Assembly (NCBI GenBank): GCA_947561395.2
Contig: OX387183.1
Location: 55,597,915 to 55,661,914, forward strand
Direction: 5' to 3'
Source: Buxus sempervirens
Lineage: Eukaryota; Streptophyta; Magnoliopsida; Buxales; Buxaceae
DNA length: 64,000 nt
Part shown: one piece after another, positions 10,891 to 43,702 of the stretch
How positions within the stretch are numbered: the first letter of the stretch is position 1
Layout: the number at the start of each line of letters is the position of its first letter
Translations under genes and position numbers: made by a program
Notes under the pieces: model-generated
Database searches by the model: none
The model's input: the letters and a program-made list of their open reading frames with translations, nothing else
What the model was told of the DNA's origin: nothing

Positions 10891-13800
10891 CCCGCCCGAG
10901 CCTCCTTTTTTCGCCCGAACCTCTTTTTTAAACCTCTTTTTTTTACTGCGCTGACAAAAGCCTTGCCCTGCCGCGCTGACAAAAGCAAGACCTCTTTTTT
11001 AAACAAAAGCCTCGCCCTGCCGCACTGACAAAAGCAAGGCCTCTTTTTTGATAAAAAATTTCGGCCGATCGGCCGATCAAGCGTCTTTTAAAGGGCGTCT
11101 TCTAAAGGAAAAAGGAAGCATTACCACAAAAAAAAAAAAAAAAAAAAGTCTGCTAAAGAGGTAAAGTTCTTTTCTATATTAAGGTGCCAAGTGACGACAA
11201 AAAAAGAAAAAGTTTATAGCAAGCCTATGTCATAGCAAGCCTATATCATAGCAAGTTTATAGCAAGCCTATATCATAGCAAAGCCTCTTTTGAGGCTTTT
11301 TCAATAGATCTGACGTTAACTGTGCCCCATTAAAATATTTAGAATTTCAGAAACGCGTTTTTTCAACTTTGCAGACCTGACGTTTTCCCAACTTTTGACA
11401 CGCGTACTCTCCCTGTTCTCGGTCTCTGGGTTCGTTTTGCTGCCTCTTCCTCTGTTCTCTGCGCTCTCCCTCCCTGTCTCTCCCTCCGTTTGTTTCGTTT
11501 TGCCTGCGTTCTCTGCGCTATTCCTCTCAGTGTCTTCTCTGCGCTCTCCCTCTCGGTCTCCGTTCTGATTTTTCCATCCCTCTGTCTCGATCTTTCACTC
11601 CTTCCTCTCATTCTCTCAGACACGATCTTCATCTCTCTGCCAGTCTTTGTCAAACCCTAACGGTCCAAGCCTGGATTTAAAGTACGATGAGGAGTGGCGG
11701 TGCAATTCTCTCACACGCGACCTTCATCTCTCTGGCAGTCCACTACCACAAAAAAAAAAAAAAAAAAAAAAATCTCTCTGGTAGTCCCTGTCAAACCCTA
11801 ACCATCCAAGCCTGGAATTTTTTTGGTAATGGTCTAAGCGTGGATTTGAAGTACGATGAGGAGTGGGGGTGCAATTAATTTTATGTTCGTTTTAAGAAAA
11901 TCTCACGACATGTACAGTATAGCAGTTGCTGCCAGAAATGTTCTTTGTAATTTAGTTTTAGTTTTTCTCTTATTTGAGAAAGAGCGACATTGTCGACATC
12001 AAGCGCTTGAACTGCTGAAACAGTGCAACATCAACGCCGAAATCGGTTGCTGCCAGAAAGGTTCTTTCTAATTTAGTTTTTCTCTTATTTCAGCTATTAT
12101 TCTCATCAATTCCATACAGCCATCTCATAGAACCATTCTTCCAACCATCTGTTGTTGCAGGGTGTTGGATTTCTTCTGTGATTCTCAGACGTGTGTTTTT
12201 GCACACCTCTGCATTTCCAGGTATATTTTCAGACAATCTTTTATGAGTTTTGAAATCTTTTATTAGTTTTGATAGACAATCTTTTTCTCCAAATTTCAAC
12301 AATGCACTATAGGTGAAGTGAGACAGAAACGCAGATGTCATTTGCAGTACAGATCAATTGCTGCAACTCACGTTGCTGTTTTTTTTTCCCTCCTTTTCTT
12401 CTGATGCAGTTTTTTGTTGATTGTGCTCGGATTTGAATTTTTCTGTAATACAGATTCCAGTAATTGATGCAATGAGGCTTGGAGACAAATTCTAGAAGCA
12501 TTTATACCTGAGGTTATTTATTTACCTTTTTTTCCTTATCTCTTGATTGATTGATTGATTATTTACCTGAGGTCATGTTCTGATCTTTGAGAAATGAGAA
12601 ACAATTCTTTCATGTTGAACTTCACAGGGAAGAAATATTATGAACACTACATAGGGAAGAAACTTCATAGGGAAGCCAATTTAAAAGCACTGAAATTAAT
12701 GATCGGATACTGCACAATAAATAGAGAAAAATTTTAAATCCAGGCAAACTATTCCATGATAATTAAGACTGCAACAAAAGAATGATTAAAAAAAATGATT
12801 TAGTTAGGTCAGATTAAACAATTTGTAACAAATGAGTCATTAAAAAGCATGAGCTGTTTAGATCAGACTAAACAATTATAACCCCACCAAAATGATAAAT
12901 GCTCTTTTCACACAATACCATGACATAAAGCATGCCCCTGCTTTCGATATTTCCTTACTTTCATGGATGAGTACACTGCGAATGATTACATATTATAAAT
13001 GAATATAATAAGAACAAGCTCACCAAATGCTGCAAAGCTGAAAGGATAGTCAATGGCTGATACTTACCTAACCTTCATAGCAGAACATGACAACAGAAAG
13101 GATTAACAGGACATTAACAAAATGGTATTTCCATGATTTGTAAACGGTTAATATAAAGAATTATCAGGCCAAAGTTCTTCTGTTTTGTACGTGTTATATG
13201 CCTTAAAAAGAAAAAATAATTTCTTTCTTTCAAAGCTTAAAATTTTTAAAAGAAAAAAAGAACACACATGGAATTCCATATAAGAAGATACATTAGATTA
13301 TTTGTTTACTTGATTTTACCCCACAATTGGTATTTTCCTCCATTTACAACACCTTAATATGATACGGGTTTCCACTTTTCATTTTTAAAAGCCTTTATGA
13401 CTCATGTATGGGTTAGACCTCAAGATATAATAATGGGTTAGACCTCATTATTATACTACTAGAAAGGCATGCACAACGCGCGGTGAATATAGTAAATGTA
13501 TATGAACTTACGTAAAACAATACGTCCATAGTAAATGTACATGAACGCACCATGAAGCATTGTAAATATCCACTTCAAACTGCTTCGTAACTTATAGGAA
13601 ATAAAATAAAAGCTAACCAGTAATAAGCTAGCTTAGGTAATTACAGCCAATACAAATCATATTTCCTTGCAGGCGGGGCCAAGGTAAAACCTGGCCTGAG
13701 TAGGTGCAGTTTGAGCCAAGAAAACCTGGCTAATTTAGTAGTTCACAACCCTTTCTATATATATATATATGAAGTTTCAGAAAACAGGAGTCTTACACAT

Positions 13801-16800
13801 CTCAAACCTTATGTCCATTATATGGAGATAGGAATCATTGTCTTAACTGAAAACTGTGAGGAGGTTGGCCCAATCAATACAACCAAGGCCATAACAATCA
13901 CAATTAACTAATTATCCCAATAGCCAGGCACGAATATAGACGCTAATTTAGTAGTTCACAATATATATTCCAAAAATAAAAATAAAAATAAAAAGATGTA
14001 GCCCAGGAACATAGCCCATCTGAAGATTTCAGGATGTTAGATATTTCCAGAAATGGAATTTGCATTAGATTTTAAATATTCTGTTTTGGAAAAACAAAAT
14101 GAATCTAAATGAATGCAAATAGCTCCAAGTAGAATAGAAATGAAATGATATAAAATTTCTAAGAAGTATGTTTAGATGTTATTTATCCAAAAAATTAAGA
14201 AACAAATGAATAAGAATATTCCACCAAGAATGCTCGCTTCTGAAAACATAAGCAACAATCCATTATAGATTGAGTTCACATGCAACTACTGGAGAAGTTT
14301 ACATCAAAAGAGAAAATGTGTTTGCACATTTTTTATTACTAGATTTAGTAACTACACGAGACTATTTTTTAGGCATAAATTTCAAGCTGAAATTGAACTA
14401 ATTTAGATTTAGTTACATCTTAACCTTCATTAAGCTATAACATTCCAATGGATACATATTTTAAATAGAAGTGAGTTTTTGTTGTTGCATTTCAGTCAAA
14501 TCTTACTCTATCTTCACATTGCTTTTTTAAATCAAGCAAAACCTATTCTGTTATGGCCGCTGCTCTCATTTTCCACCTAGATGTTTTGTTGTATTTAACA
14601 ATTTGCCCCTCTTTTTGTTACATATTTCTTTGACCGCTATTTTATGCATATTAAGTTTATATTGAAGATTGTATCTATTATCTCAACAACTTTTGCTCGG
14701 TAATGTAGTTACTTTACAGTTGATTTATTGATTGAATGAATTGATCAATGATTTGCTTGATTTAAGTTTAGTGATTCGTTTGGTAGACTTCTTCAAATGC
14801 TTGATCTCTCGATTTGATGTTTTTATAGGCGGATGTTAAACTATCAAACGGTTGCTTAGCTAGAGCTGCTCTTCCAAGCGGTGGATTGACAGGTAACCAA
14901 AAGATCTCTAATTCCATCATCGAAATTTGGGATTAGGAAATATAGGAATCTTTTGATGTTAAAGTGTTTCCTAATTGAAAGATTTGTGGCAATGAGTAGG
15001 GAAGTTATGTTAAAGTTTTTGGAGTTGCATATAATGTAATAAATAAAAGTTGAAAACCGCATATTATATAAGAAAAAAGGTGGGCTTTCTTTTTCCTTTA
15101 TAAACATCTTGCTGATGGTCTAATTGTTTAGCTTACACTCTACCAAGCATGGTTTCATGTATAATTCACAATACCGGTTCATAAATTAAAATTTTTTCAT
15201 GAGAAAAAGTTTTTGATCATGGAACAAATTTTTTCACTTAGTTGATGTTATGGAGCAAAAAGAGATAAAGAGTGAGTTGCTCTATTGACACTTTACCTAT
15301 TATGGATTAAACTATAAATAGGTGGATTAATATATCTTTTAAACTCACTTTTAGATGAATGTATAAATAACATAATGGACTATTTGTCTTTGTTGGATTA
15401 GTCCTATAAAGTGTATTCTTATAGCATGTACGAATTTCTTTAATTGCTTACTATTAACACAATTTTAGCCAAATGGTTTTATTAAACGGTTAAATCATTG
15501 ATTCAATGTTATAGAAATCCTTTACTTTAAGCCTTAGATACACTCCTTTTACAACTCCTATTATAATAAAATATTTGTTATCTATATGAAGATAAAACTT
15601 CTTTCACTTACGTATCAAGTTTGTGTGGTTTTGGTTCGAACCTTAACACAAAATGAAATCTATAACACCTACCAGAAAAAAACATAAGCAACAACCCACT
15701 AAACTCAACCTAGAGCAAAACTGACTCTTATCTTTTCAGCTCATTACATACAAAGTGAATGTCCAAACACTCTACCCAACAAAATTAAGTCAAACCTACT
15801 CCGTCAAAAAAGGCTTGACTCAAATCTAAAGCTACCAAAAAGATATTTATATGCATATATATTTAGGTTTTCGATTAGGTTAGCTTAAGCCTGGCATCAA
15901 CCCAGATCCAGACCTATCTTGCTCGACACCTAACAAAGCGAATAAAACTCAACACATTGACTTTCTATCTAATATGTTTTAATCCAAAATTAAATAATTT
16001 AAATCCTATTTTCTTCTCTACTGACACTTTTCCAATGTTGTTTTTTCATTTTAATGTGCCAGGTGTGGCTTTTCTTCTTTAACTATCTATTGATGAAATT
16101 TATATTTGTTTTCTTATTCCTTTTTTTTTAAATGCTTCACAGTTCTTATACTTTGAGTAATCAATTGGGTGTGGTACTGATTTTCAGTTATTTGCGCATT
16201 GATTTTCAGATTTGTCCTCTTCGTCATCTAAGCATTGCTCATATGCTTTAAAAAACAGTGGATTTTGTTGGTACTTCAATTTCAGTAATTGACTAAAGTG
16301 GAGAGATCGAAACAGGTATGGGTTTTCCTTCTTTCTTATATTTCGGTATTGAATAAAATATATAAAATTTTGCTTATATTTTCTAGATTTAGTTTTATAG
16401 TTATGAGAATCAATGTTGCTTCTTACTTACTTTTTTTTTTATAAATTGTATCGCTTTTTCTTCTCTTTATTTATAGGTCTATGGCACATTCTATTGGTTC
16501 TTGCTTCATTGGAACACAAAATATATTGGTTGTTACATACAAACACTCTTTGTTTAGCATGCTTTTTTTTTTCTGTTTTAATCAATTGTGTCTATTTGCT
16601 TTCCTACATTTGGTTTTATAGTTATAAGATGAAAAGAAGGGATTAGCATGTTGCTTTTGCAATTTTTCATTTTCTGTTTTTTGTTGACAATGTTACTTTC
16701 TTAGTATTTCGATCTTCTTTTAAGTTGCGTTCTTTTTTTGTTTTCCAAGCTTATCATATAACTCAACTTAGATTACCAATAAGCAGTTTAACATCCATAC

Positions 16801-17047
16801 ATAAAAAACCCAATAAGACAATTAAATAAAGGAAAACAAAAAATTTGATAACGTATAATTCAAATAACAATTCATCCATGAAGAAATTAGAATGTTCTTA
16901 ATGCAACTTATTAGGATCGTATTACTCTTCTTCATAATTACATTTTGTTATTAAAAGGAATTAAACTCTTTAAAATGTTATTAATAGCTTAATGATATAG
17001 CTTGATACAAAAAACAACTTAATTTTTCCAGGCATCTTCCTTCTGCT
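10891..17047 (+). other. Helitron 5' non-coding region, copy A
   Basis: Six kilobases before the transposase start. Order: short repeats with GACAAAAGC and CCTCTTTTTT (10919-11045); a palindromic CGGCCGATCGGCCGATC near 11065; short repeats of ATAGCAAGCCTATATC (11215-11285); a pyrimidine-rich leader-like tract (11395-11650); and an imperfect direct repeat around TACGATGAGGAGTGG (about 11630-11706 and 11772-11876). Beyond this the DNA is AT-rich with one probable captured exon (14829-14892). The transposase promoter and leader presumably lie here, but I cannot place a start site. Confidence 0.55.
14829..14892 (+). pseudogene. Probable captured enolase exon, copy A
   Basis: A 64-base segment bounded by TTTTATAG and GTAACC reads ADVKLSNGCLARAALPSGGL plus T. 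Enolases have VEVDVxLSNGxxARAAVPSGASTG near the N-terminus, so this fits one exon with its own splice sites and part of both introns. The loop residues AST are changed to GLT, so the segment has drifted. No other enolase exon was found nearby. Gene-fragment capture by Helitrons is well established; the enolase identity is my inference from a short match. Confidence 0.5.
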
Positions 17048-20000
17048 ATGTCAACTCATTCACGAACAGGTAATAGTAACTATATCTTATTATCTTACTT
17101 ACATAAAAAATACACAATGAAGTAGTCATATTTCTCATTGTATTTTTTTTCACTAGGTGAATACCATGGCCACTCAGATGGCAATCAAACTCTATCACAT
17201 GCGATTATTTCCTCACAACAATTAGCTAGGCGTCATAGAATACAAATTTTACAGCAAAGGAGACACACTAGAGATAATGATGTTACCATGACACCATCAA
17301 CTCAAAATGCTTCACATGTTACTGATGGTGTCAATACATCAACAATACAACAAATCATGCCCAGATCACATGGTCAAATGATTTCCAATGTCGAATCTTC
17401 CTCCGCCAGTAAGCTAATTTACTTTTATGTCTTCATTTCCTTCAATTTATCTTAATCCTCATATGGCATTCCTATTACTATTATCTAAAAAGTTTTCCCC
17501 AAATATTCTGTACAATAGGTACACTTAATGCAAATTCCAGCTCCACAAGGAATAGGATATTCACAGAACGATTTGAATTTGGGCCACCATCACATACATG
17601 TCCAAATTGTGCAGCTAAAATGTGGATTCAAGAGCGATCATCAAAAAGTTCATTAAATAATCCAGAATTCTCGCTATGCTGCAAGAATGGAAAGGTTGAT
17701 ATACCTTTATTGTTAGAGACACCTACTTTCTTGCAAGAATTGTTCAACGGCATTCATGATAGCACACAATCGAAGTTTAAAAGTTTGATTCGAGTGTACA
17801 ATTGCATGTTCTCCTTTACTTCTATAGGAGGAAAGATTGATTATAGTTTACTGGATGGTCGAGGCCCCTATGCTTTTCGAATTACTGGGCAAAATTATCA
17901 CAGCATAGGCTCTCTTCTACCATTGGAAGGATCATCTCCAAAATTTGCACAACTCTACATTTATGACACGGCTAATGAAATTCAAAATCGGATTTCTTTC
18001 ATCCAGGAAAATAACTCTACAAGAGAGATTGTGCATCAAAGTAACTCTACAAGACATATTAATCCTTTAGTCGTTGAAGGATTAAGAGAAATGTTGGATC
18101 AAACAAATCCTTATGCACATGTTTACCGAAGAGCGCGTGATTTTATGGCCAATAATGGTACCATAAATTTACAAATAAGGATTCTGGAAAATAGAGCAGC
18201 AAATTGGAGACAATACATACGGCCATCAGGTGATGAAGTTGCCGCATTAATGGTTGGTGATGGATCTGGAGATTATAACCATCGTGACATTGTTATCTCT
18301 ACTACTGATCACTTTCTACATAGAATTAATGAAACTCATCCAAGTTACATGCCATTACAGTATCCTCTTTTATTTCCATATGGAGAAGATGGATGGCGAA
18401 TTGGAATACCATATAGAGCAAGAAATATTAATATGACTTCTTCTCGCGATACTGTTTCAATGAGAGAATTTTATGCATTTCGCATTCAACATCGATTGGC
18501 GGAAGGTAAAACCCTTTTACAAGGTGGACGAGCTTTCCAACAATTCGTCGTTGATGCCTATGCTGCAATTGAAGAATGTCGTCTGAAATGGGTACGAAGT
18601 AATCAAAAACAATTGCGTTCTGAACTCTACCAAGGATTACATGATGCAATAACGACAGGAGACAATGTCGCTGCTGCTGTTGGAAGACGTTTAATTCTTC
18701 CATCTTCATTTACTGGTGGCCCACGGAATATGATCCAAAACTTCCAAGATGCAATTGCTATCTGTAGATGGGCTGGACCTCCTGATCTTTTTATTACATT
18801 CACATGCAAGCCAAAATGGAAGGAGATCGAACAAGCAATACAGTCAATAAACAATCAGAAAGCAGAAGATAGGCCTGACATAGTTGCTCGAGTCTTCAAG
18901 ATTAAGGTCAAGCAGTTATTACATGACATTAAAATAACAAAAATTTTTGGAACAGTAATTGCAGGTAAGTACTTCATTACATATATTTAACTCACTCTAA
19001 TAATATCAACCTTATTATCTATATACTGACATTATATAAATTTGTTGACAGATCTTTATGTTGTAGAATTCCAAAAGAGAGGATTGCCGCATGTTCATAT
19101 GTTATTTACTCTCTCAAGTGAATACAAGCCTACTTCTGTTGATGATATTGACAGAATAGTTAGTGCTGAACTTCCCGATCGGAATATAAATCCTCTAGCT
19201 TATGAAACGGTTGTCAAATGTATGATACATGGTCCATGTGGTCACTTCAATCCATATGCACCATGCATGATTGACATGAAGTGCTCAAAAGGCTATCCCA
19301 AGCAATTTTGTAGTCAAACTACAATTGCATCTAATGGATTTCCAATATATCGACGTCGAGATGATGGAAGAACTGCCTTAATTAATGGTATCGAAGTTGA
19401 TAATCGTTGGGTCATACCTCACAACATTGAACTATTAACGCGTTATGATAGTCATATAAATGTGGAGATTGTTGGCCGTTCAACAATGACAAAATACTTA
19501 TTCAAGTATGTACATAAAGGACCAGATCGAGCAACTATAGTAATTGAGAACAATGACAAGGCTCATGACAGTACACAAGGCCATCAATATAGTCACATTG
19601 ATGAAGTTCAGCAATATTTAGACTGTCGTTACATATCATCATCAGAAGCCTGTTGGAGAATTTTTGAATTTGACTTGCATCAAAGACATCCAGCAGTTGA
19701 GAGACTGGAATATCACTTGGAAAATCAACAGGCAGTTGTCTTCAATGACAACGATGATCTACATCGAGTTATTTCAAGAAGCGATACAGGCAAAACAATG
19801 TTAACTCAGTGGTTTGAAGCTAACAAAATAAATCCAGATGCTCGAACTTTAACATATGTTGACTTCCCTAGATTCTGGGTTTGGAACAACAAAAGAAAAG
19901 AATGGAGTAGGCGACAATCTCATGACTGCATTGGAAGGTTATATTTTGCTCATCCAACATCAGGTGAACGTTATTACCTGCGTATGCTCTTGCACATTGT

Positions 20001-21975
20001 ATGTGGTGCAACTTCCTATAAAGATATACGTATGGTTAACGGAATTGAATATCCCAATTTCAAGTCAGCTTGCATTGCACTTGGACTCCTTGATGATGAC
20101 AATGAATGGAACGATACTCTTTCGGAAGCAAACACATGGGCGTCTTCATACCAACTTCGCCACATGTTTGCATCAATGCTCATGTTTTGTGAAATTTCCA
20201 ATCCGTATCAACTATGGAATGCTCACTGGGAAAAGTTCGTAGATGATTTCATTTCAAGAGCAAGGAGAGAAGCAAGTAATTTTTCCATTGAGTTGCCTTC
20301 CGATGACTTACAAAACAGTGCTCTTCATGAGATTGAACAAATTCTAAATCGAAACGGAACATCGTTGAAACAATTTCAAGGTATGCCTTTACCAAGATCT
20401 GAAATAAACTCTGTCATTCAGAATAGTCTTATCCTTGAAGAATTAAATTACAATGCAGCATTATTAAAGCATGAATTCGAACAAATGCATGCACAACTAA
20501 ATGCTGAACAGAAATTAGTTTTCAATACCATTATGGATAAAGCTGCAAGTATGTCTGGGGGACTATTCTTTCTTTATGGAAGTGGAGGTACAGGAAAAAC
20601 GTTTCTATGGAAGACAATCATTGCTAAATTACGAAGTGAACAGAAAATCGTTCTTGCTGTAGCGTCTTCAGGGATAGCTTCCTTATTATTACCTGGTGGC
20701 AGAACAGCACATTCGCGCTTCAAAATTCCATTACAATTACATGAAACTTCAACTTGCCCAATTAGTCAACAAACTCATTTAGCAGAACTCATAAGAAAGG
20801 CACACCTCATAATTTGGGATGAAGCACCGATGATACATAGGCATGCTTTTGAAGCAGTTGATCGAACGTTTCGAGATCTCATGAACCAAACTTCTCCAGA
20901 TGCAATATATAAACCTTATGGCAGTAAATTAGTCCTTCTTGGAGGAGATTTCAGACAAATATTACCAGTCATTCAAAAAGGAGGAAGAGAAGATATTGTA
21001 TCATCTTCAATTCAAAGATCAGTTCTTTGGAGACATTGCCAAATATTCCATTTGAAGACAAACATGCGGATTCGCTCCAATAATGCGTCCAATCCAAGCA
21101 ATTTAGAGCTTGAAAGGTTCAGAAAATGGGTTCTTGACATAGGAAATGGTTCCATACCGGGTCTTGATTTGTCACATAATGGTGAATTTGATTGGATAAA
21201 AATTCCTGATGACTTACTTATCCAAAATAAGACATCAGGCATTGAGGCACTAATTGATCATATTTACTTCCGGTTACAAGAAAGATATCAAGAACCTTCT
21301 TTTTTTGAAGAACGTGCTATTTTAGCACCAAAGAATGAAGATGTCGATACCATAAACAACAAAATACTTTCAATGCTTCCTGGACATACTGAAACTTTCT
21401 TCAGTGCTGATACTAGCAACCCCATAGAAGGAAATACAGATCACCAAGATAATATGCATCCGATTGAATATCTGAATTCTTTGAATCTTAGTGGCCTACC
21501 AAATCACCGATTGCAATTGAAAGTTGGAGCACCTATTGTCTTACTACGGAATCTAAATCCATCAATTGGCCTCTGCAATGGTACAAGACTTATCATTCAT
21601 AAGTTACAAAGACATGTCATCGAAGCAAAACAAATCACAAGCATGAGCAGAGGCCAATCGGTTTTCATTCCAAGGATTATCATGTCTCCTTCAAATATCG
21701 ATATGCCCTTCAATTTCAAAAGAAGGCAATTTCCTCTTCGGCTAGCTTTTGCAATGACAATTAACAAAAGCCAAGGACAAAGTTTCAAAAAAGTTGGTTT
21801 ATTTTTACCAAATCCAGTATTCTCTCATGGCCAACTATATGTAGCTGTGTCACGAACTACAACACGAGAAGGATTGAAAATTTTGATACAAAATAATGAC
21901 AAACCAGATGGTTACACCAAGAATGTTGTCTTCAAGGAAGTTTTTCAGCAAATATCAAGCACAAGATCAATCTAG
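17048..21975 (+). CDS. Helitron Rep/helicase transposase, copy A (four exons)
   Basis: Exons 17048-17069, 17157-17408, 17519-18964 and 19052-21975 join in frame through three GT-AG introns into 1547 codons. A zinc-finger-like start (C119, C122, then CC at 145-146) precedes the Helitron-like N domain. Rep motifs follow: FITFTCKP (516-523), the HUH motif GLPHVHML (H587, H589) split from motif 1 by the last intron, and YLFKY (Y722, Y726), the tyrosines that cut and join DNA. The PIF1-type helicase has Walker A GSGGTGKT (1083-1090), DEAP (D1163), GGDFRQ (1204-1209), TINKSQGQ (1476-1483) and VAVSR (1504-1508). All key residues are present, so the protein should be active. The ATG sits 13 bases after a splice acceptor, suggesting a non-coding first exon upstream. 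The RPA-like gene follows 0.9 kb downstream. Confidence 0.92.
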
Positions 21976-22891
21976 ATATTTCAATCAAAGGATTGCATGA
22001 TATGGAAGGTACAAATTCTCCATAATACAAAATATCCTATCTGCTACAACAAAGTATTTCATATTGTTTGCAAATTTTGCAAATTCAATATACATTCACC
22101 TAAAGGAGAGACCAAAAAAATCAAAACTATTTCAATAAAATATGACAATAGGATTGAGAATACAATTATACTATTGACTTCTTTTCTGAATTCAACCCAT
22201 CAAAATTTTTTATGTGCATAATCTGTTTATATATTGCTAACTTTTGCTGCGCTCAATTACATTCATAATATATCTTCATTTCTTTTTTAAAACTTTCATA
22301 ATAGGTTCTCAAAAGTACACAACAAAGTTAACACTTACGTAAACCCATTATAATCATTACAAAACATACAATATAAACTACACATCTTATGCATACTCTC
22401 TACCACTATTGACTTAAAAGACATTATTCAAAAAATACTGCATCTTATAAATTTTGTTGAACAAGCATATAAAGCAAAAAAAAATTTGGAATATAAACTG
22501 TATCTTATCTTTGCTCTCTATAAGATGTTTTATTTTGCAAATAAGCAACATAGTTCCTACTTTACCGACCTACACTCTAAAAAAACGAAATAATACAAGC
22601 TAATTACTGTTTTTCATATTCATTTTGTTTCCGCCATGCAATCTAACAGATGCCAAAGATAGCTGTGTACAATCCAACATGGGGTTTTTCAATAAAGATG
22701 CCATTAACACAACTGAAGAAGTTAATCAGGCCTTACATAAACGAGATATCTAATGAACAGTACGCTCTACAATAACAATATCTTCATAAATGTGTTACTC
22801 TTTCATGACTTTATTTACCATGCATTACCAATTGTATACAAAATATTATTATTCTAATAATTTATTAATACTCTTTTCTCAAATATACAGG
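21976..22891 (+). other. Spacer between transposase and RPA-like genes, copy A
   Basis: AT-rich with no conserved frame. It must hold the transposase 3' end and either the RPA promoter or an intron, because CAAATATACAG, a good splice acceptor, lies directly before the RPA start codon. The same spacer is at 38328-39243 in copy B. Confidence 0.5.
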
Positions 22892-25800: not shown

Positions 25801-26002
25801 TTTATGACTCCCACTATATTTCTCAAACTATAGAACAAATTTTGTCAACAAATTTTGTCCATAACTTTAACTATACCAGTACTTACAGCTGAACTAATAC
25901 TTGCTTTATTTTTTCACCATTTTTCAGGAACAGTGTCTTCCAAAAGAGACTGCCAGTAGCTCAGGATGTAAGCGAAGATCAAATTCAACAAATTCTGAAT
26001 AG
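22892..26002 (+). CDS. RPA70-like single-strand DNA-binding protein, copy A (12 exons)
   Basis: Exons 22892-23047, 23149-23422, 23498-23582, 23699-23823, 23960-24038, 24122-24266, 24340-24497, 24574-24694, 24772-24972, 25113-25169, 25652-25741 and 25928-26002. All eleven introns are GT-AG and the join is in frame for 521 codons to TAG. The order matches the RPA large subunit: a first OB fold (WKIKARIV near residue 20), a second OB fold (DLIGVVVHIS near 144; LVLTLW), and a third with a four-cysteine zinc site (C312, C315, C328, C331). The N-terminal protein-interaction domain of cellular RPA70 is absent. The tail is basic with two SGxKRRxNS motifs, possible nuclear localisation signals. Many plant Helitrons carry such a gene, thought to coat the displaced strand during rolling-circle transposition. 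Confidence 0.88.
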
Positions 26003-26729: not shown

Positions 26730-27241
26730 GTTTATTGTCTCTATAGGTTACATAAGTTGCTATAAGCACAGGGTTTACAATGCTGCAGGTTTATTGTCTC
26801 TATAGGATACATAAGTTGCTATAAGAGGGTTTACAATGCTGCAGGTTTATTGGCTCTATAGGATACATAAGTTGCTATAAGCACAGGATTTACAATGGTG
26901 CAGGTTTATTGGCTCTATAGGATACATAAGTTGCTATAACAGGGCTCTATAGGATACATAAGATCCTATAAGAGGGTTTACAATGCTGTAGGTTTATTGC
27001 CTCTATAGGATACATAAGTTGCTATAAGCACAAGGTTTACAATGGTGCAGGTTTATTGGCTCTATAGGATATATAAGTTGCTATAACCACAGGATTTACA
27101 ATGCTGCAGGTTTATTGCATTTACAATCCTGCAAGTTTATTGGCTCTATAGGATACGTAAGTTGCTATAAGCACAGGGTTTACAATGGTGCAGGTTTATT
27201 GGCTCTATAGGATATATAAGTTGCTATAACCACAGGATTTA
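26730..27241 (+). repeat. ~60-bp tandem array, copy A, truncated at the duplication junction
   Basis: Imperfect units of GGTTTATTGGCTCTATAGGA, then TACATAAGTTGCTATAAGCACAGG and GTTTACAATGCTGCA. Some units are partly deleted. The last unit stops at CACAGGATTTA, where copy B begins. Confidence 0.85.
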
Positions 27242-30200: not shown

Positions 30201-33200
30201 GAAAACTGTGAGGAGGTTGGCCCAATCAATACAACCAAGGCCATAACAATCACAATTAACTAATTATCCCAATAGCCAGGCACGAATATAGACGCTAATT
30301 TAGTAGTTCACAATATATATTCCAAAAATAAAAATAAAAATAAAAAGATGTAGCCCAGGAACATAGCCCATCTGAAGATTTCAGGATGTTAGATATTTCC
30401 AGAAATGGAATTTGCATTAGATTTTAAATATTCTGTTTTGGAAAAACAAAATGAATCTAAATGAATGCAAATAGCTCCAAGTAGAATAGAAATGAAATGA
30501 TATAAAATTTCTAAGAAGTATGTTTAGATGTTATTTATCCAAAAAATTAAGAAACAAATGAATAAGAATATTCCACCAAGAATGCTCGCTTCTGAAAACA
30601 TAAGCAACAATCCATTATAGATTGAGTTCACATGCAACTACTGGAGAAGTTTACATCAAAAGAGAAAATGTGTTTGCACATTTTTTATTACTAGATTTAG
30701 TAACTACACGAGACTATTTTTTAGGCATAAATTTCAAGCTGAAATTGAACTAATTTAGATTTAGTTACATCTTAACCTTCATTAAGCTATAACATTCCAA
30801 TGGATACATATTTTAAATAGAAGTGAGTTTTTGTTGTTGCATTTCAGTCAAATCTTACTCTATCTTCACATTGCTTTTTTAAATCAAGCAAAACCTATTC
30901 TGTTATGGCCGCTGCTCTCATTTTCCACCTAGATGTTTTGTTGTATTTAACAATTTGCCCCTCTTTTTGTTACATATTTCTTTGACCGCTATTTTATGCA
31001 TATTAAGTTTATATTGAAGATTGTATCTATTATCTCAACAACTTTTGCTCGGTAATGTAGTTACTTTACAGTTGATTTATTGATTGAATGAATTGATCAA
31101 TGATTTGCTTGATTTAAGTTTAGTGATTCGTTTGGTAGACTTCTTCAAATGCTTGATCTCTCGATTTGATGTTTTTATAGGCGGATGTTAAACTATCAAA
31201 CGGTTGCTTAGCTAGAGCTGCTCTTCCAAGCGGTGGATTGACAGGTAACCAAAAGATCTCTAATTCCATCATCGAAATTTGGGATTAGGAAATATAGGAA
31301 TCTTTTGATGTTAAAGTGTTTCCTAATTGAAAGATTTGTGGCAATGAGTAGGGAAGTTATGTTAAAGTTTTTGGAGTTGCATATAATGTAATAAATAAAA
31401 GTTGAAAACCGCATATTATATAAGAAAAAAGGTGGGCTTTCTTTTTCCTTTATAAACATCTTGCTGATGGTCTAATTGTTTAGCTTACACTCTACCAAGC
31501 ATGGTTTCATGTATAATTCACAATACCGGTTCATAAATTAAAATTTTTTCATGAGAAAAAGTTTTTGATCATGGAACAAATTTTTTCACTTAGTTGATGT
31601 TATGGAGCAAAAAGAGATAAAGAGTGAGTTGCTCTATTGACACTTTACCTATTATGGATTAAACTATAAATAGGTGGATTAATATATCTTTTAAACTCAC
31701 TTTTAGATGAATGTATAAATAACATAATGGACTATTTGTCTTTGTTGGATTAGTCCTATAAAGTGTATTCTTATAGCATGTACGAATTTCTTTAATTGCT
31801 TACTATTAACACAATTTTAGCCAAATGGTTTTATTAAACGGTTAAATCATTGATTCAATGTTATAGAAATCCTTTACTTTAAGCCTTAGATACACTCCTT
31901 TTACAACTCCTATTATAATAAAATATTTGTTATCTATATGAAGATAAAACTTCTTTCACTTACGTATCAAGTTTGTGTGGTTTTGGTTCGAACCTTAACA
32001 CAAAATGAAATCTATAACACCTACCAGAAAAAAACATAAGCAACAACCCACTAAACTCAACCTAGAGCAAAACTGACTCTTATCTTTTCAGCTCATTACA
32101 TACAAAGTGAATGTCCAAACACTCTACCCAACAAAATTAAGTCAAACCTACTCCGTCAAAAAAGGCTTGACTCAAATCTAAAGCTACCAAAAAGATATTT
32201 ATATGCATATATATTTAGGTTTTCGATTAGGTTAGCTTAAGCCTGGCATCAACCCAGATCCAGACCTATCTTGCTCGACACCTAACAAAGCGAATAAAAC
32301 TCAACACATTGACTTTCTATCTAATATGTTTTAATCCAAAATTAAATAATTTAAATCCTATTTTCTTCTCTACTGACACTTTTCCAATGTTGTTTTTTCA
32401 TTTTAATGTGCCAGGTGTGGCTTTTCTTCTTTAACTATCTATTGATGAAATTTATATTTGTTTTCTTATTCCTTTTTTTTTAAATGCTTCACAGTTCTTA
32501 TACTTTGAGTAATCAATTGGGTGTGGTACTGATTTTCAGTTATTTGCGCATTGATTTTCAGATTTGTCCTCTTCGTCATCTAAGCATTGCTCATATGCTT
32601 TAAAAAACAGTGGATTTTGTTGGTACTTCAATTTCAGTAATTGACTAAAGTGGAGAGATCGAAACAGGTATGGGTTTTCCTTCTTTCTTATATTTCGGTA
32701 TTGAATAAAATATATAAAATTTTGCTTATATTTTCTAGATTTAGTTTTATAGTTATGAGAATCAATGTTGCTTCTTACTTACTTTTTTTTTTATAAATTG
32801 TATCGCTTTTTCTTCTCTTTATTTATAGGTCTATGGCACATTCTATTGGTTCTTGCTTCATTGGAACACAAAATATATTGGTTGTTACATACAAACACTC
32901 TTTGTTTAGCATGCTTTTTTTTTTCTGTTTTAATCAATTGTGTCTATTTGCTTTCCTACATTTGGTTTTATAGTTATAAGATGAAAAGAAGGGATTAGCA
33001 TGTTGCTTTTGCAATTTTTCATTTTCTGTTTTTTGTTGACAATGTTACTTTCTTAGTATTTCGATCTTCTTTTAAGTTGCGTTCTTTTTTTGTTTTCCAA
33101 GCTTATCATATAACTCAACTTAGATTACCAATAAGCAGTTTAACATCCATACATAAAAAACCCAATAAGACAATTAAATAAAGGAAAACAAAAAATTTGA

Positions 33201-33399
33201 TAACGTATAATTCAAATAACAATTCATCCATGAAGAAATTAGAATGTTCTTAATGCAACTTATTAGGATCGTATTACTCTTCTTCATAATTACATTTTGT
33301 TATTAAAAGGAATTAAACTCTTTAAAATGTTATTAATAGCTTAATGATATAGCTTGATACAAAAAACAACTTAATTTTTCCAGGCATCTTCCTTCTGCT
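27242..33399 (+). other. Helitron 5' non-coding region, copy B
   Basis: Same content as the copy A region, with one extra base in the poly-A run (28101-28124) and one substitution at 29070. It lacks the true 60-base Helitron 5' end. Confidence 0.55.
31181..31244 (+). pseudogene. Probable captured enolase exon, copy B
   Basis: Exact duplicate of the copy A segment, with the same AG and GT borders, carried along by the 16-kb duplication. Confidence 0.5.
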
Positions 33400-36300
33400 A
33401 TGTCAACTCATTCACGAACAGGTAATAGTAACTATATCTTATTATCTTACTTACATAAAAAATACACAATGAAGTAGTCATATTTCTCATTGTATTTTTT
33501 TTCACTAGGTGAATACCATGGCCACTCAGATGGCAATCAAACTCTATCACATGCGATTATTTCCTCACAACAATTAGCTAGGCGTCATAGAATACAAATT
33601 TTACAGCAAAGGAGACACACTAGAGATAATGATGTTACCATGACACCATCAACTCAAAATGCTTCACATGTTACTGATGGTGTCAATACATCAACAATAC
33701 AACAAATCATGCCCAGATCACATGGTCAAATGATTTCCAATGTCGAATCTTCCTCCGCCAGTAAGCTAATTTACTTTTATGTCTTCATTTCCTTCAATTT
33801 ATCTTAATCCTCATATGGCATTCCTATTACTATTATCTAAAAAGTTTTCCCCAAATATTCTGTACAATAGGTACACTTAATGCAAATTCCAGCTCCACAA
33901 GGAATAGGATATTCACAGAACGATTTGAATTTGGGCCACCATCACATACATGTCCAAATTGTGCAGCTAAAATGTGGATTCAAGAGCGATCATCAAAAAG
34001 TTCATTAAATAATCCAGAATTCTCGCTATGCTGCAAGAATGGAAAGGTTGATATACCTTTATTGTTAGAGACACCTACTTTCTTGCAAGAATTGTTCAAC
34101 GGCATTCATGATAGCACACAATCGAAGTTTAAAAGTTTGATTCGAGTGTACAATTGCATGTTCTCCTTTACTTCTATAGGAGGAAAGATTGATTATAGTT
34201 TACTGGATGGTCGAGGCCCCTATGCTTTTCGAATTACTGGGCAAAATTATCACAGCATAGGCTCTCTTCTACCATTGGAAGGATCATCTCCAAAATTTGC
34301 ACAACTCTACATTTATGACACGGCTAATGAAATTCAAAATCGGATTTCTTTCATCCAGGAAAATAACTCTACAAGAGAGATTGTGCATCAAAGTAACTCT
34401 ACAAGACATATTAATCCTTTAGTCGTTGAAGGATTAAGAGAAATGTTGGATCAAACAAATCCTTATGCACATGTTTACCGAAGAGCGCGTGATTTTATGG
34501 CCAATAATGGTACCATAAATTTACAAATAAGGATTCTGGAAAATAGAGCAGCAAATTGGAGACAATACATACGGCCATCAGGTGATGAAGTTGCCGCATT
34601 AATGGTTGGTGATGGATCTGGAGATTATAACCATCGTGACATTGTTATCTCTACTACTGATCACTTTCTACATAGAATTAATGAAACTCATCCAAGTTAC
34701 ATGCCATTACAGTATCCTCTTTTATTTCCATATGGAGAAGATGGATGGCGAATTGGAATACCATATAGAGCAAGAAATATTAATATGACTTCTTCTCGCG
34801 ATACTGTTTCAATGAGAGAATTTTATGCATTTCGCATTCAACATCGATTGGCGGAAGGTAAAACCCTTTTACAAGGTGGACGAGCTTTCCAACAATTCGT
34901 CGTTGATGCCTATGCTGCAATTGAAGAATGTCGTCTGAAATGGGTACGAAGTAATCAAAAACAATTGCGTTCTGAACTCTACCAAGGATTACATGATGCA
35001 ATAACGACAGGAGACAATGTCGCTGCTGCTGTTGGAAGACGTTTAATTCTTCCATCTTCATTTACTGGTGGCCCACGGAATATGATCCAAAACTTCCAAG
35101 ATGCAATTGCTATCTGTAGATGGGCTGGACCTCCTGATCTTTTTATTACATTCACATGCAAGCCAAAATGGAAGGAGATCGAACAAGCAATACAGTCAAT
35201 AAACAATCAGAAAGCAGAAGATAGGCCTGACATAGTTGCTCGAGTCTTCAAGATTAAGGTCAAGCAGTTATTACATGACATTAAAATAACAAAAATTTTT
35301 GGAACAGTAATTGCAGGTAAGTACTTCATTACATATATTTAACTCACTCTAATAATATCAACCTTATTATCTATATACTGACATTATATAAATTTGTTGA
35401 CAGATCTTTATGTTGTAGAATTCCAAAAGAGAGGATTGCCGCATGTTCATATGTTATTTACTCTCTCAAGTGAATACAAGCCTACTTCTGTTGATGATAT
35501 TGACAGAATAGTTAGTGCTGAACTTCCCGATCGGAATATAAATCCTCTAGCTTATGAAACGGTTGTCAAATGTATGATACATGGTCCATGTGGTCACTTC
35601 AATCCATATGCACCATGCATGATTGACATGAAGTGCTCAAAAGGCTATCCCAAGCAATTTTGTAGTCAAACTACAATTGCATCTAATGGATTTCCAATAT
35701 ATCGACGTCGAGATGATGGAAGAACTGCCTTAATTAATGGTATCGAAGTTGATAATCGTTGGGTCATACCTCACAACATTGAACTATTAACGCGTTATGA
35801 TAGTCATATAAATGTGGAGATTGTTGGCCGTTCAACAATGACAAAATACTTATTCAAGTATGTACATAAAGGACCAGATCGAGCAACTATAGTAATTGAG
35901 AACAATGACAAGGCTCATGACAGTACACAAGGCCATCAATATAGTCACATTGATGAAGTTCAGCAATATTTAGACTGTCGTTACATATCATCATCAGAAG
36001 CCTGTTGGAGAATTTTTGAATTTGACTTGCATCAAAGACATCCAGCAGTTGAGAGACTGGAATATCACTTGGAAAATCAACAGGCAGTTGTCTTCAATGA
36101 CAACGATGATCTACATCGAGTTATTTCAAGAAGCGATACAGGCAAAACAATGTTAACTCAGTGGTTTGAAGCTAACAAAATAAATCCAGATGCTCGAACT
36201 TTAACATATGTTGACTTCCCTAGATTCTGGGTTTGGAACAACAAAAGAAAAGAATGGAGTAGGCGACAATCTCATGACTGCATTGGAAGGTTATATTTTG

Positions 36301-38327
36301 CTCATCCAACATCAGGTGAACGTTATTACCTGCGTATGCTCTTGCACATTGTATGTGGTGCAACTTCCTATAAAGATATACGTATGGTTAACGGAATTGA
36401 ATATCCCAATTTCAAGTCAGCTTGCATTGCACTTGGACTCCTTGATGATGACAATGAATGGAACGATACTCTTTCGGAAGCAAACACATGGGCGTCTTCA
36501 TACCAACTTCGCCACATGTTTGCATCAATGCTCATGTTTTGTGAAATTTCCAATCCGTATCAACTATGGAATGCTCACTGGGAAAAGTTCGTAGATGATT
36601 TCATTTCAAGAGCAAGGAGAGAAGCAAGTAATTTTTCCATTGAGTTGCCTTCCGATGACTTACAAAACAGTGCTCTTCATGAGATTGAACAAATTCTAAA
36701 TCGAAACGGAACATCGTTGAAACAATTTCAAGGTATGCCTTTACCAAGATCTGAAATAAACTCTGTCATTCAGAATAGTCTTATCCTTGAAGAATTAAAT
36801 TACAATGCAGCATTATTAAAGCATGAATTCGAACAAATGCATGCACAACTAAATGCTGAACAGAAATTAGTTTTCAATACCATTATGGATAAAGCTGCAA
36901 GTATGTCTGGGGGACTATTCTTTCTTTATGGAAGTGGAGGTACAGGAAAAACGTTTCTATGGAAGACAATCATTGCTAAATTACGAAGTGAACAGAAAAT
37001 CGTTCTTGCTGTAGCGTCTTCAGGGATAGCTTCCTTATTATTACCTGGTGGCAGAACAGCACATTCGCGCTTCAAAATTCCATTACAATTACATGAAACT
37101 TCAACTTGCCCAATTAGTCAACAAACTCATTTAGCAGAACTCATAAGAAAGGCACACCTCATAATTTGGGATGAAGCACCGATGATACATAGGCATGCTT
37201 TTGAAGCAGTTGATCGAACGTTTCGAGATCTCATGAACCAAACTTCTCCAGATGCAATATATAAACCTTATGGCAGTAAATTAGTCCTTCTTGGAGGAGA
37301 TTTCAGACAAATATTACCAGTCATTCAAAAAGGAGGAAGAGAAGATATTGTATCATCTTCAATTCAAAGATCAGTTCTTTGGAGACATTGCCAAATATTC
37401 CATTTGAAGACAAACATGCGGATTCGCTCCAATAATGCGTCCAATCCAAGCAATTTAGAGCTTGAAAGGTTCAGAAAATGGGTTCTTGACATAGGAAATG
37501 GTTCCATACCGGGTCTTGATTTGTCACATAATGGTGAATTTGATTGGATAAAAATTCCTGATGACTTACTTATCCAAAATAAGACATCAGGCATTGAGGC
37601 ACTAATTGATCATATTTACTTCCGGTTACAAGAAAGATATCAAGAACCTTCTTTTTTTGAAGAACGTGCTATTTTAGCACCAAAGAATGAAGATGTCGAT
37701 ACCATAAACAACAAAATACTTTCAATGCTTCCTGGACATACTGAAACTTTCTTCAGTGCTGATACTAGCAACCCCATAGAAGGAAATACAGATCACCAAG
37801 ATAATATGCATCCGATTGAATATCTGAATTCTTTGAATCTTAGTGGCCTACCAAATCACCGATTGCAATTGAAAGTTGGAGCACCTGTTGTCTTACTACG
37901 GAATCTAAATCCATCAATTGGCCTCTGCAATGGTACAAGACTTATCATTCATAAGTTACAAAGACATGTCATCGAAGCAAAACAAATCACAAGCATGAGC
38001 AGAGGCCAATCGGTTTTCATTCCAAGGATTATCATGTCTCCTTCAAATATCGATATGCCCTTCAATTTCAAAAGAAGGCAATTTCCTCTTCGGCTAGCTT
38101 TTGCAATGACAATTAACAAAAGCCAAGGACAAAGTTTCAAAAAAGTTGGTTTATTTTTACCAAATCCAGTATTCTCTCATGGCCAACTATATGTAGCTGT
38201 GTCACGAACTACAACACGAGAAGGATTGAAAATTTTGATACAAAATAATGACAAACCAGATGGTTACACCAAGAATGTTGTCTTCAAGGAAGTTTTTCAG
38301 CAAATATCAAGCACAAGATCAATCTAG
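33400..38327 (+). CDS. Helitron Rep/helicase transposase, copy B (four exons)
   Basis: Exons 33400-33421, 33509-33760, 33871-35316 and 35404-38327. The protein is the same as copy A except for residue 1402, isoleucine in A and valine in B (A21535/G37887), a conservative change between the DEAP and TINKSQGQ motifs. All Rep and helicase residues are kept, so this Helitron carries two apparently functional transposase genes. The long frame opening near 35394 is exon 4 read back into the intron; it has no ATG there, and the GACAG acceptor gives the true exon start at 35404. Confidence 0.92.
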
Positions 38328-39243
38328 ATATTTCAATCAAAGGATTGCATGATATGGAAGGTACAAATTCTCCATAATACAAAATATCCTATCTGCTACA
38401 ACAAAGTATTTCATATTGTTTGCAAATTTTGCAAATTCAATATACATTCACCTAAAGGAGAGACCAAAAAAATCAAAACTATTTCAATAAAATATGACAA
38501 TAGGATTGAGAATACAATTATACTATTGACTTCTTTTCTGAATTCAACCCATCAAAATTTTTTATGTGCATAATCTGTTTATATATTGCTAACTTTTGCT
38601 GCGCTCAATTACATTCATAATATATCTTCATTTCTTTTTTAAAACTTTCATAATAGGTTCTCAAAAGTACACAACAAAGTTAACACTTACGTAAACCCAT
38701 TATAATCATTACAAAACATACAATATAAACTACACATCTTATGCATACTCTCTACCACTATTGACTTAAAAGACATTATTCAAAAAATACTGCATCTTAT
38801 AAATTTTGTTGAACAAGCATATAAAGCAAAAAAAAATTTGGAATATAAACTGTATCTTATCTTTGCTCTCTATAAGATGTTTTATTTTGCAAATAAGCAA
38901 CATAGTTCCTACTTTACCGACCTACACTCTAAAAAAACGAAATAATACAAGCTAATTACTGTTTTTCATATTCATTTTGTTTCCGCCATGCAATCTAACA
39001 GATGCCAAAGATAGCTGTGTACAATCCAACATGGGGTTTTTCAATAAAGATGCCATTAACACAACTGAAGAAGTTAATCAGGCCTTACATAAACGAGATA
39101 TCTAATGAACAGTACGCTCTACAATAACAATATCTTCATAAATGTGTTACTCTTTCATGACTTTATTTACCATGCATTACCAATTGTATACAAAATATTA
39201 TTATTCTAATAATTTATTAATACTCTTTTCTCAAATATACAGG

Positions 39244-42200
39244 ATGGCATTTCAATCTTATACACCATTTCGCTTCTTACATAAATTTCAACCACGATGG
39301 AAAATCAAGGCAAGAATTGTACGGCTTCCACATATCCATACATTTGTCAGAGGAAACTCTAGAAAGCATGTTTGGAAAATAATCTTCATGGATCAAGAGG
39401 TAACTTCATTTACGTGTAAATTTAAGAATATACACAAGAACAAATTTTATATTTACAAATATTTATCTTACCTTATTTACTTGACTATTTCTTCATTTAG
39501 GGAGAAGAAATGGAAGCTATTATGTGGAATGAAGTGATTGCAAAGTTTCAAACACAATTCCAAGAAGGCAAGGTCTATGCGTTATCTGCTGTTAAGGTCA
39601 TTGAATCTGACAAAAGGTACAGAATTCTTCAAAATGATAAGCAACTACTACTGACCGACCAGACCTCTATTGATGAGGTATTCAATGAGTGCATAGAAAT
39701 TCCAGACTTGAAATACAATTTCACTCCGCTGAATGAAATCTGCCAGCAAACCATGCCAGAGCACACTTACATAGGTACTTTTTTATTGTTTTCATAATAT
39801 ATATATAAAATTAAAACCATTAATTCATTATAACATATATACTTTACAGATCTCATTGGAGTTGTAGTTCACATATCTGTAGTTCGTCCAACTAGCACTG
39901 GATTGAGAAGGGATGTCATACTACTTGACAAAAAGTATGGTACCTTCTACTTTCTTTCCATATTTAAATAATTATTTATAAATCATGTCACCAATATCTC
40001 TTAAAACATGATAAATACAAAAACATTCCTTTCTCGGTTATTTCATCCAGATTCGATCCTCTGGTCTTAACTTTGTGGAACAACTTTGCTTCGAATGAGG
40101 GCAAACAATTAGAAGAAATCATAGAAACCAATCCCATTCTAATCGGTTTGGCACTTAATCAAAACCATTATCGAGGTATGATTTACAACTTTCAAATTTT
40201 CTATTTTAAAATTATACGACTCGCATCTAAAAACAATGCATTGTTCACCTATCCAACAATTAATTACTGTAATACTTTTTATATTTTATTTGACTTTTTT
40301 ACCTCTTGCAGGCCTGTCAGTCACAAGCACAGCACACTCAAAGTTCATCATTGGTCCAACTACATATGAAGCAAATGAGTTGAAATCATGGTAATTCCAT
40401 GAACTCCATAATATGCAATTCTCATTTAAACATTATTTACAAACCAACACATCACTAACCTATAAAATTTCAGGTCATCCACTAATGAAACAGTCAAGTT
40501 TTTCATACATTGGATTCAAAATACAAGACCTTCATTACAGTGGACGACGATGTTCTCAAAATCAAAGAGGATCTCCACAATGCACTTGCAAATGCCTTTA
40601 CTCTCTCAATCGTCTGAGGTATTAATTTCTATTTTATATAAAACAATATACATAGGAACATTTTCACAAACTAATGATATCCTATTTACAGATATACTAC
40701 TATCGCATCCTGGCTCATCTCACACAAATAGACACAAGCCGACCACTGTGGTATGATGCCTGCTCACAATGTAACAAGAAAGTACAATTTTCAAATGGAA
40801 GGTATCTTTGTTACCCATGTAAAAAGGAAAATGCAGATGTAGTCTTCAGGTAAATAAACATAACATACTATATCATTTACATGACAATATAACTTTCATT
40901 ATATTTATGGCCAATCTTATTGCAGATGCATTGTTCATGCAACTGTTCAAGATTCTCTCCAAGAAGCAACACTCACTCTGTTTGATAAAGAAGCCGAATA
41001 CCTGATTGGATGCACTGCTGAAAATGCTAAAGAGCTATCATCAAAGGTAAATCCAAATCCTATCATAACCAAATAATAATTATAAAACTAATTGACATAA
41101 TATAATAAATATGACCTCTACAGGACAACGGCATTGAACTATTGGAGCGATACATTACAACAAGGTTGTGGAAGCCATACATTTTCATTATTGCATCTTC
41201 CACTTTTCCTACTTCATCAATCAGAAGACCTTCATTTCCAGTATGTGTAATTCTAGATCCTAATTGGTCTTACGAGACTTTCAAACTTCTTCAAGAAATT
41301 GAAAGTTATCCAAAATTGCCAACGGTATAATTTCCTTTGATTAAATCAACCCACTTTCTATCTTCTCTCTCTCTCTCCGTCTCTTATCCATCACTTATAT
41401 AATTAATTCAAACCAAAATTTCAAGCTAACAATCTGTCTTACTCATTCCCAATTAATCATTTAGGATCAGATGCTTCCAAGTCTTACACAAGAAAATGCT
41501 AGACCACAAGAGGAAGAACAGGTACCTATCTACACACATAATTAGTTCCTCAAAATTTTTAATTTCTTATCATTTATATCAATTTTATACGTTTAATCGC
41601 ACACAAGTTCTCATTGTTATCTTAGAACATTTAATTTCCAATCGATGTCAGTATTAGTCATATAAATCTTTAACATCAACTTTGCAGTTCCCTTTCATAA
41701 TCCATGTTGAGACTTTAATATGAATTTCAGATTTATTATTTCAATCACAATGTAAAACAAATTTAATAAATAGAACTTGGATATGATATTTTACGTATTT
41801 TCTAATCAATTGCCTCATTTCAATGTAGATCATATTGATACCATTTAATTTTCTTTTCCATTCTTTAAATTTGTCTTAAGATATAAATAATTCAATTTAT
41901 TCACCATTTGTTTTCAACATTACAAACTATACAACCTCAACAAAAATAAATTCCACTTCCATAATGAAACTAATAATACCCTAATATTAAAATCATTTTG
42001 CAGGATCCAAATTTTGCAGCAGAAACTTCAAGTTACTCAGGAAATAAGCGAAGATGGAATTCACCAACTCATACACAAGAAACTACGTCCATGGTATTTT
42101 TCTCACTTTAATTTTTCTACCAATCCACAATAAAGTTCCAACATAAATTCGTTTTATGACTCCCACTATATTTCTCAAACTATAGAACAAATTTTGTCAA

Positions 42201-42354
42201 CAAATTTTGTCCATAACTTTAACTATACCAGTACTTACAGCTGAACTAATACTTGCTTTATTTTTTCACCATTTTTCAGGAACAGTGTCTTCCAAAAGAG
42301 ACTGCCAGTAGCTCAGGATGTAAGCGAAGATCAAATTCAACAAATTCTGAATAG
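39244..42354 (+). CDS. RPA70-like single-strand DNA-binding protein, copy B (12 exons)
   Basis: All twelve exons recur at +16,352 from copy A: 39244-39399, 39501-39774, 39850-39934, 40051-40175, 40312-40390, 40474-40618, 40692-40849, 40926-41046, 41124-41324, 41465-41521, 42004-42093 and 42280-42354. I saw no difference from copy A in the coding exons or splice sites. The protein therefore has the same OB folds and four-cysteine zinc site, and both copies appear equally functional. Confidence 0.88.
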
Positions 42355-43069
42355 AAACCTGTTCTTTTTTGTTGAACAATACAAACACGTTTTTTGTTTA
42401 ATGATGCAAACCAGGTGTTTTTTGTTTAACAATACAAACAACTTTTTGAATCTACAATACAAACAAGGGCATACCAGCTCGGCTGGCAAAAATGTCAAAC
42501 CTGAAACTTGGTGAACCAAATCTAAATGAAGCAATGTTCTATGTATTTCTATATGTTCATTTGATGATGTTTTGTCCGGCAGCAGATACATATCTTTGCT
42601 TCATAACAATGTAGATGTACTGTTTGATCTGAAATTGGGGAAGGTTAGTTTCTATGATTCGAAAATTTTTTATTCCAATTGGTTTAATCACAGGTTGTTA
42701 ATTTGGATCTTGACTTGCTACTGAAAATTTTTAATCGCCGTTAAATGTTATTCATGGACATTGGAGCTGAGCTGGTTGGGTTGTTATGTTTGGGACTTTT
42801 AAATTTCTTTTTCTTCTTTTTGGTTTTGTGGTGAGGATCCTGTTGGTCTGTTAAAGCAGCCATACATGTCCTAAAATAATTGTTGCTATGCAATTATTTT
42901 CGTGTTTTGTTTTTTTCTTCTCTACTATTATTGTTCCTATGCAAATATAAATGTAAAAACAGGATTGTTTTGCTGACCCTGATTAATTTGGATAAGGCAC
43001 TGTTGCTGCTGCTGCTGTTGTCATTGTCATTATTGTTTTTGGATTGTCTACTTAGAATAACTACTGCAC

Positions 43070-43702
43070 GTTTATTGTCTCTATAGGTTACATAAGTTGC
43101 TATAAGCACAGGGTTTACAATGCTGCAGGTTTATTGTCTCTATAGGATACATAAGTTGCTATAAGAGGGTTTACAATGCTGCAGGTTTATTGGCTCTATA
43201 GGATACATAAGTTGCTATAAGCACAGGATTTACAATGGTGCAGGTTTATTGGCTCTATAGGATACATAAGTTGCTATAACAGGGCTCTATAGGATACATA
43301 AGATCCTATAAGAGGGTTTACAATGCTGTAGGTTTATTGCCTCTATAGGATACATAAGTTGCTATAAGCACAAGGTTTACAATGGTGCAGGTTTATTGGC
43401 TCTATAGGATATATAAGTTGCTATAACCACAGGATTTACAATGCTGCAGGTTTATTGCATTTACAATCCTGCAAGTTTATTGGCTCTATAGGATACGTAA
43501 GTTGCTATAAGCACAGGGTTTACAATGGTGCAGGTTTATTGGCTCTATAGGATATATAAGTTGCTATAACCACAGGATTTACAATGCTGCAGGTTTATTG
43601 GATTTACAATGCTGCAGGTTTATTGGCTCTATAGGATACATAAGTTCCTATAAGCACAGGGTTTACAATGCTGCAGGTTTAGTGTCTCTATAGGATACAT
43701 AA
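43070..43702 (+). repeat. ~60-bp tandem array, copy B, complete
   Basis: The same array as in copy A, continuing about 120 bases past the point where copy A is cut. One more isolated unit lies at 44238-44303, just before the captured ERDJ2 fragment, so the array was once longer or was split by the insertion of 44-kb-region DNA. Confidence 0.85.

Follow-up and report, generated by a model that had tools for sequence, protein, structure and literature searches.

A plant Helitron in Buxus sempervirens with what looks like a recent internal tandem duplication of its coding core

Duplicated blocks and their genes

The window, by which is meant the whole 64,000-bp stretch analysed here, lies on contig C3 (55597915-55661914) of a 676.5-Mb assembly. 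Self-comparison of the window gives a single long direct repeat made up of copy A (10891-27241, +, 16,351 bp) and copy B (27242-43581, +, 16,340 bp), and the 99.9% identity over 16.35 kb excludes chance. Self-BLAST and alignment return exactly the limits of the two head-to-tail 16.35-kb blocks that a preliminary description of this DNA had announced, and its short list of differences is reproduced when the two halves are aligned in full: three substitutions, one poly-A base and one 12-bp (TTGTCA)2 repeat change. The substitutions (T/C at 12718/29070, A/G at 21535/37887 and T/C at 26387/42739 in copy A/copy B) are all transitions and leave the copies 99.98% identical by substitutions (0.018% divergence). 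The duplicated block (10891-43581) is not the same as the element, whose limits lie outside it at 10835 and 45078.

Both copies contain a RepHel transposase gene in two open stretches. The N-terminal stretch of copy A (17413-18987, +) matches Helitron_like_N (PF14214, E 4.9e-48), and the C-terminal stretch (19030-21972, +) contains the HUH and two-tyrosine motifs and a PIF1-type helicase (PF05970, E 2.3e-89). We take the HUH motif to be HVH, the two-tyrosine motif YLFKY and the helicase motif GSGGTGKT. The gap between the two stretches looks like a short intron. Coordinates in copy B are those of copy A plus 16352, which places its stretches at 33765-35339 (+), with a protein identical to that of copy A, and at 35382-38324 (+), with one I/V difference. 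One of the three substitutions falls within the RepHel frame, which is open in both copies as had been claimed. The amino acid difference earlier given as I1402V is indeed isoleucine in copy A and valine in copy B, but the number 1402 was not reproduced and the position corresponds to residue 836 of the second open stretch.

An RPA-like gene, consisting of exon pieces with approximate limits, is found at 22869-24721 (+) in copy A and with identical sequence at 39221-41073 (+) in copy B. It is recognised by DUF223 (OB fold) and Rep_fac-A_C: the latter (PF08646) occurs in two exon pieces, one above the cut-off (E 1.4e-7) and one below it (E 2.3e-5), while DUF223 (PF02721) is below the cut-off (E 2.6e-4) and four of the seven pieces have no match at E <=1. 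Further along the window, the minus strand has an open frame at 61521-63122 that encodes domains of the large chain of carbamoyl-phosphate synthase (CPSase_L_D1, D2 and MGS).

The assembly contains at least 20 RepHel matches, and the only tandem pair among those listed is the one at this locus; two matches on C11 are parts of one interrupted copy. The nearest relatives among the 20 listed are 96% identical, so that no match found comes anywhere near the similarity between the two copies. RepHel is free of stops and frame breaks in only one of six fetched relatives, that on C8, and is broken in those on C9, C1 and C14 and in two on C3. Comparison of copy B with the C8 gene gives dN 0.030 and dS 0.152 for the first stretch and dN 0.029 and dS 0.143 for the second. 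The resulting dN/dS of about 0.2 is a sign of past constraint on RepHel. The first 1158 bases of the window (1-1158) have an 88% match to a stretch adjoining the RepHel relative at C3:23.4 Mb, which is another repeat common to both places.

Ends of the element, insertion site and captured fragments

The element that encloses both copies extends from a 5' TC at 10835 to a 3' CTAG ending at 45078 (10835-45078, +, 34,244 bp), and without one copy its length would be about 17.9 kb. Its left terminal sequence (LTS; 10835-10904, +) is about 70 bp long, is conserved in other genomic copies and is predicted to form a strong hairpin: folded as single-stranded DNA it reaches -21.1 kcal/mol (z -3.5), and none of 200 shuffled sequences folds as well. 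Copy B retains just the last 14 bp of the LTS. The right terminus (45051-45078, +) reads CCCGTGCATCGCACGGG-TTATCTG-CTAG, with a hairpin (stem CCCGTGC and GCACGGG, loop ATC) close to the CTRR terminus.

The 5' end was searched with positions 10835-11345, which gave 44 matches listed (40 of 140 candidates scored). Base 10835 is reached by 38 of these 44, the window's own included, and many of the matches listed extend no further than the first 70-103 bases, suggesting non-autonomous relatives that have only the terminus in common. Because the query itself began at 10835, the flanking sequences have to decide where the element starts. Twelve loci were fetched, two of them the window's own, and eight of the ten others have the exact start TCTATTCTCTTAA with differing upstream flanks, preceded by A in seven of the eight. 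A search with the last 260 bp gave 40 matches listed (40 of 59 candidates scored), of which six, again including the window's own, reach the last base of the element and the others fall short. The 3' end is called from four of the five non-own matches that reach it; in all four the CTAG end is followed by T and then by divergent flanks, and in three the stem of the right hairpin is imperfect. The element thus starts with a single left end (10835) and closes with a single hairpin-CTAG end (45078), with no end pairs for the individual units, in agreement with the single pair of Helitron ends originally described around both copies. By the five features tested it is an ordinary canonical plant Helitron with RPA.

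This element is inserted in another Helitron, here called X, which is non-autonomous and 1,514 bp long. The first 4 bp of X (TCTA) are at 10831-10834 (+) and the remainder, which closes with a hairpin and CTAG, is at 45079-46588 (+). Three uninterrupted copies of X (L049, L051 and L053) start with TCTATATATATTAAGCGAAGC and read TCTA followed directly by TATATATTAAGCGAAGC. At the present locus the 5' flank of the inner element ends in TCTA and its 3' flank is TATATATTAAGCGAAGC, which is interior sequence of X. The inner element therefore sits after the fourth base of X. The same copies (TCTA then TATATATTAAG, with the element located exactly between the two) represent a clean empty site, and the insertion took place between A and T without target-site duplication.

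Insertions at this point of X are seen in other places as well. The sequence expected for an insertion after base 4, CTAG followed by TATATATTAAGCGAAGCGGG, is present at 33 places in the genome with at most two mismatches, 15 of them exact and 30 with CTAG intact, and a backward control gave 0; the uninterrupted start of X is present at 77 places, also with a control of 0. Three different right ends were found at the base-4 site in the loci read (L048, L050 and L052). Helitrons appear to have inserted repeatedly at this one exact point, which would be either a hotspot or a spreading composite. A preference of Helitrons for insertion near other Helitrons is cited in PMC12477314, in the part of that paper available. 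Six matches to the interior of X on the same strand, spaced about 0.95-1.2 kb apart, were found at C15:6958396-6964239 and constitute a probable tandem array.

Two segments of the element have counterparts elsewhere in the assembly. A putative captured host fragment at 43734-44242, inside the minisatellite at the right side of the element, is 98.4% identical to C15:32.444 Mb, with 8 mismatches in 509 bp, no gap, sharp edges and unrelated flanks, and one minisatellite unit resumes after it (44240-44312). This was the sole other match found in the assembly, and the fragment is probably a recent host gene-fragment capture with C15:32.444 Mb as donor. The other segment, at 12650-14246 in copy A and 29002-30598 in copy B, has one strong match (C1:68.222 Mb, 92-95%), which holds stretches of 93 and 92 bp that are absent from 12650-14246 at two points. 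Four weaker partial matches to 13000-14000 are found elsewhere among those listed. This segment may be an older capture or a shared insertion.

Junction, age and origin of the duplication

The two copies meet at GGATTTA/CCCGCCCGAG (27222-27261, +), with 1 bp of microhomology (C) and no filler. The sequences joined are a minisatellite with a 59-bp unit, found at the end of copy A (26724-27241, +) and in copy B, where it continues past the end of the duplication (43064-43702, +), and base 57 of the left terminus, inside its hairpin. The left breakpoint within the LTS of about 70 bp leaves copy B without a complete left terminus and copy A without a right one. With 70 bp of LTS in a 17.9-kb element, the chance of a random breakpoint falling there is about 0.4%, although this is post hoc arithmetic. 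No other left end broken at base 57 was seen among the 44 matches listed (40 of 140 candidates scored). A 23-base junction pattern searched with up to three mismatches against the whole 676-Mb assembly gave one match, which is exact and is this locus; the pattern is short, and the backward control also gave one match at up to three mismatches. The doubled form was found nowhere else, either by this pattern in the assembly or among the 20 RepHel matches listed. An exact junction unique in the assembly makes the event look local and derived, and neither this junction nor the 20 RepHel matches listed, which include no other tandem pair, give any indication that the doubled form has transposed.

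The substitutions provide some information about order and age. All six relatives have G at 21535, so the A (isoleucine) of copy A is derived, and the one relative found for 12718 has C, so copy A is derived there as well. Both polarisable substitutions thus arose in copy A, as C>T or G>A; 26387 is not polarisable, and the changes are too few to speak of a faster decay of copy A. C>T and G>A changes are as expected for aging methylated DNA and differ from indel-type sequencing error. The usual plant rate is 7e-9 per site per year, at which three changes correspond to about 13,000 years with a Poisson interval of 2,700-38,000 years; at 2e-9, which might suit a long-lived plant, the age would be about 46,000 years. 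The ten thousand years or so previously proposed hold insofar as the duplication is recent under a clock, but the figure is rough given the width of the interval. Gene conversion between the copies, if acting, would make these ages minima. No single-copy sibling close enough for independent dating was found, the best RepHel relatives among the 20 listed being 96% identical. Sequence divergence is 1.6% and 5-8% for the captures and 0.018% between the copies, so that whichever single clock is applied the captures come out much older than the duplication.

The explanation we favour, with a probability of about 0.6, is that a canonical plant Helitron of about 17.9 kb underwent one recent, real, one-step non-homologous tandem duplication of its 16.35-kb interior. 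A polymerase moving leftward would stall in the left-terminal hairpin and continue from its 3' end on the minisatellite 16.35 kb back, with the body of the element copied twice. Such an event would be template switching or microhomology-mediated repair, either at the chromosome or during copying of the element. The hairpin at one breakpoint and the minisatellite at the other both fit replication or repair with a template switch. The direction of the polymerase and the template switching itself are the conjectural parts, and end joining, a recombined circle or a dimer deprived of its middle could give the same structure. Homologous recombination is unlikely as the first event when a single base is shared, but once formed, the doubled element could revert to one copy if its two halves recombined homologously. 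An origin from pre-existing repeats by unequal crossing over was rejected, since the breakpoints have 1 bp in common.

A rolling-circle origin is possible but doubtful. It would involve either a head-to-tail dimer (CTAG/TC) minus its middle or a defective circle, lacking both ends, that entered the resident element by recombination. Both circles and precise head-to-tail joints have been described for Helitrons (PMC5148889, PMC5876387 and PMC4778049, in the parts available of each), but the joint observed here is not CTAG/TC. A dimer would have required a later deletion of about 1.55 kb covering the right end at its inner joint together with 56 bp of the left end there, and the one-step duplication is placed first because it needs one step instead of two events. 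Stripped of its internal ends, such a dimer would presumably act as one element. In the assembly there are exact joints of CTAG to the left end of the inner element's family (CTAG followed by TCTATTCTC) at C12:31657830 and C3:17163549, two of the eight matches listed, and the same-strand series of six X matches at C15:6.958-6.964 Mb also speaks for rolling-circle products. However, the CTAG at C3:17.16 Mb belongs to X, and the 1.5 kb upstream at C12:31.66 Mb matches the 3' end of the element over only 36 bp, so neither joint is a demonstrated self-dimer. It is improbable that a trimmed rolling-circle product became a single 34-kb element with two transposases which transposes as a unit and amplifies its own genes in cis during transposition.

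That the unit is in reality single-copy and was doubled in assembly, through a chimeric read, an extrachromosomal circle or two alleles set in tandem, is rather unlikely. The near identity of the copies (99.98% by substitutions) would fit, as would the fact that two of the five differences are in a homopolymer and a short repeat, but the differences also include three transitions, and the repeat change is one of two units. Neither allele would have the left terminus beside the minisatellite, so mixing of alleles alone could not yield the junction, nor would repeat collapse by itself make a junction with a 1-bp overlap; the joint requires a molecule that carries it, a chimera or a circle. The window contains no N, and among the 20 RepHel matches listed there is no third near-identical copy and none on a small contig. 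Two separate Helitrons, nested or adjacent, are very improbable, even though both arrangements occur in this genome and the element is itself nested in X. A nested insertion needs a second TC and CTAG, and the absence of both at 27241/27242 refutes this reading; independent insertions would furthermore not be 99.9% identical with the same internal end points.

The doubled form could probably be mobilised only from its single LTS, with all 34 kb moving together or, should termination fail, a shorter product. The left end is essential and the right end not strictly so in the bat element Helraiser (PMC4778049, in the part available), and with a single LTS present here the doubled form would accordingly be expected to move from its single left end.

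Relation to known Helitrons and tandem repeats

The doubled core appears to have arisen by a recent duplication within the element, which looks like an unusual form of a well-known type and does not amount to a novel system. No Helitron whose coding core is present twice between a single pair of ends was found described in the open PMC literature, in the portions available there; most subscription papers lie outside it. If real, the locus would be a datable and sequence-resolved case of a transposon doubling its transposase genes. It could then be used to ask whether template switching is triggered by the hairpins of Helitron left ends, and whether a second transposase copy in cis leads to higher activity or to silencing. 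The finding concerns one event at one locus in this assembly.

Tandem Helitron sequences in the same orientation have been reported both for the head-to-tail Helitrons of bats (Pritham and Feschotte) and for the tandem centromeric Helitrons of plants (Xiong, Dooner and Du 2016), both via PMC2267711, PMC5148889 and PMC5876387, and this is the likeness to the present locus as far as the available passages of the citing papers extend. According to these passages the known cases have a CTAG/TC joint or truncated units, whereas the joint GGATTTA/CCCGCCC lies internal to both ends of the element, 56 bp and about 1.5 kb from them. They also differ in that nearly the whole element is repeated here, with both copies lying between a single pair of ends. 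The doubled element lacks both marks of a head-to-tail concatemer, the direct CTAG/TC joint and separate ends for each unit. An adjacent pair of Helitrons in maize was judged by its authors to be two insertions (PMC2267711, in the part available).

The element resembles the RepHel Helitrons already described from plants (PMC12477314; Mothra and its sister family, PMC4683698; Feng8 of wheat, PMC13286980). In the available parts of these papers they are alike in their TC and hairpin-CTAG ends, in RepHel, in the A-T target and in gene-fragment capture, and those of PMC12477314 and PMC4683698 also in the RPA-like gene. Unlike the present element, none of them is mentioned in those parts as having a doubled coding core. 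The maize P1-wr cluster (PMC2686159, in the part available) provides a parallel outside transposons, with near-identical tandem units of 12 kb that are open to unequal crossover and gene conversion. P1-wr is, however, a host gene in eleven copies, whereas the unit duplicated here is the interior of a transposon and is present in two.
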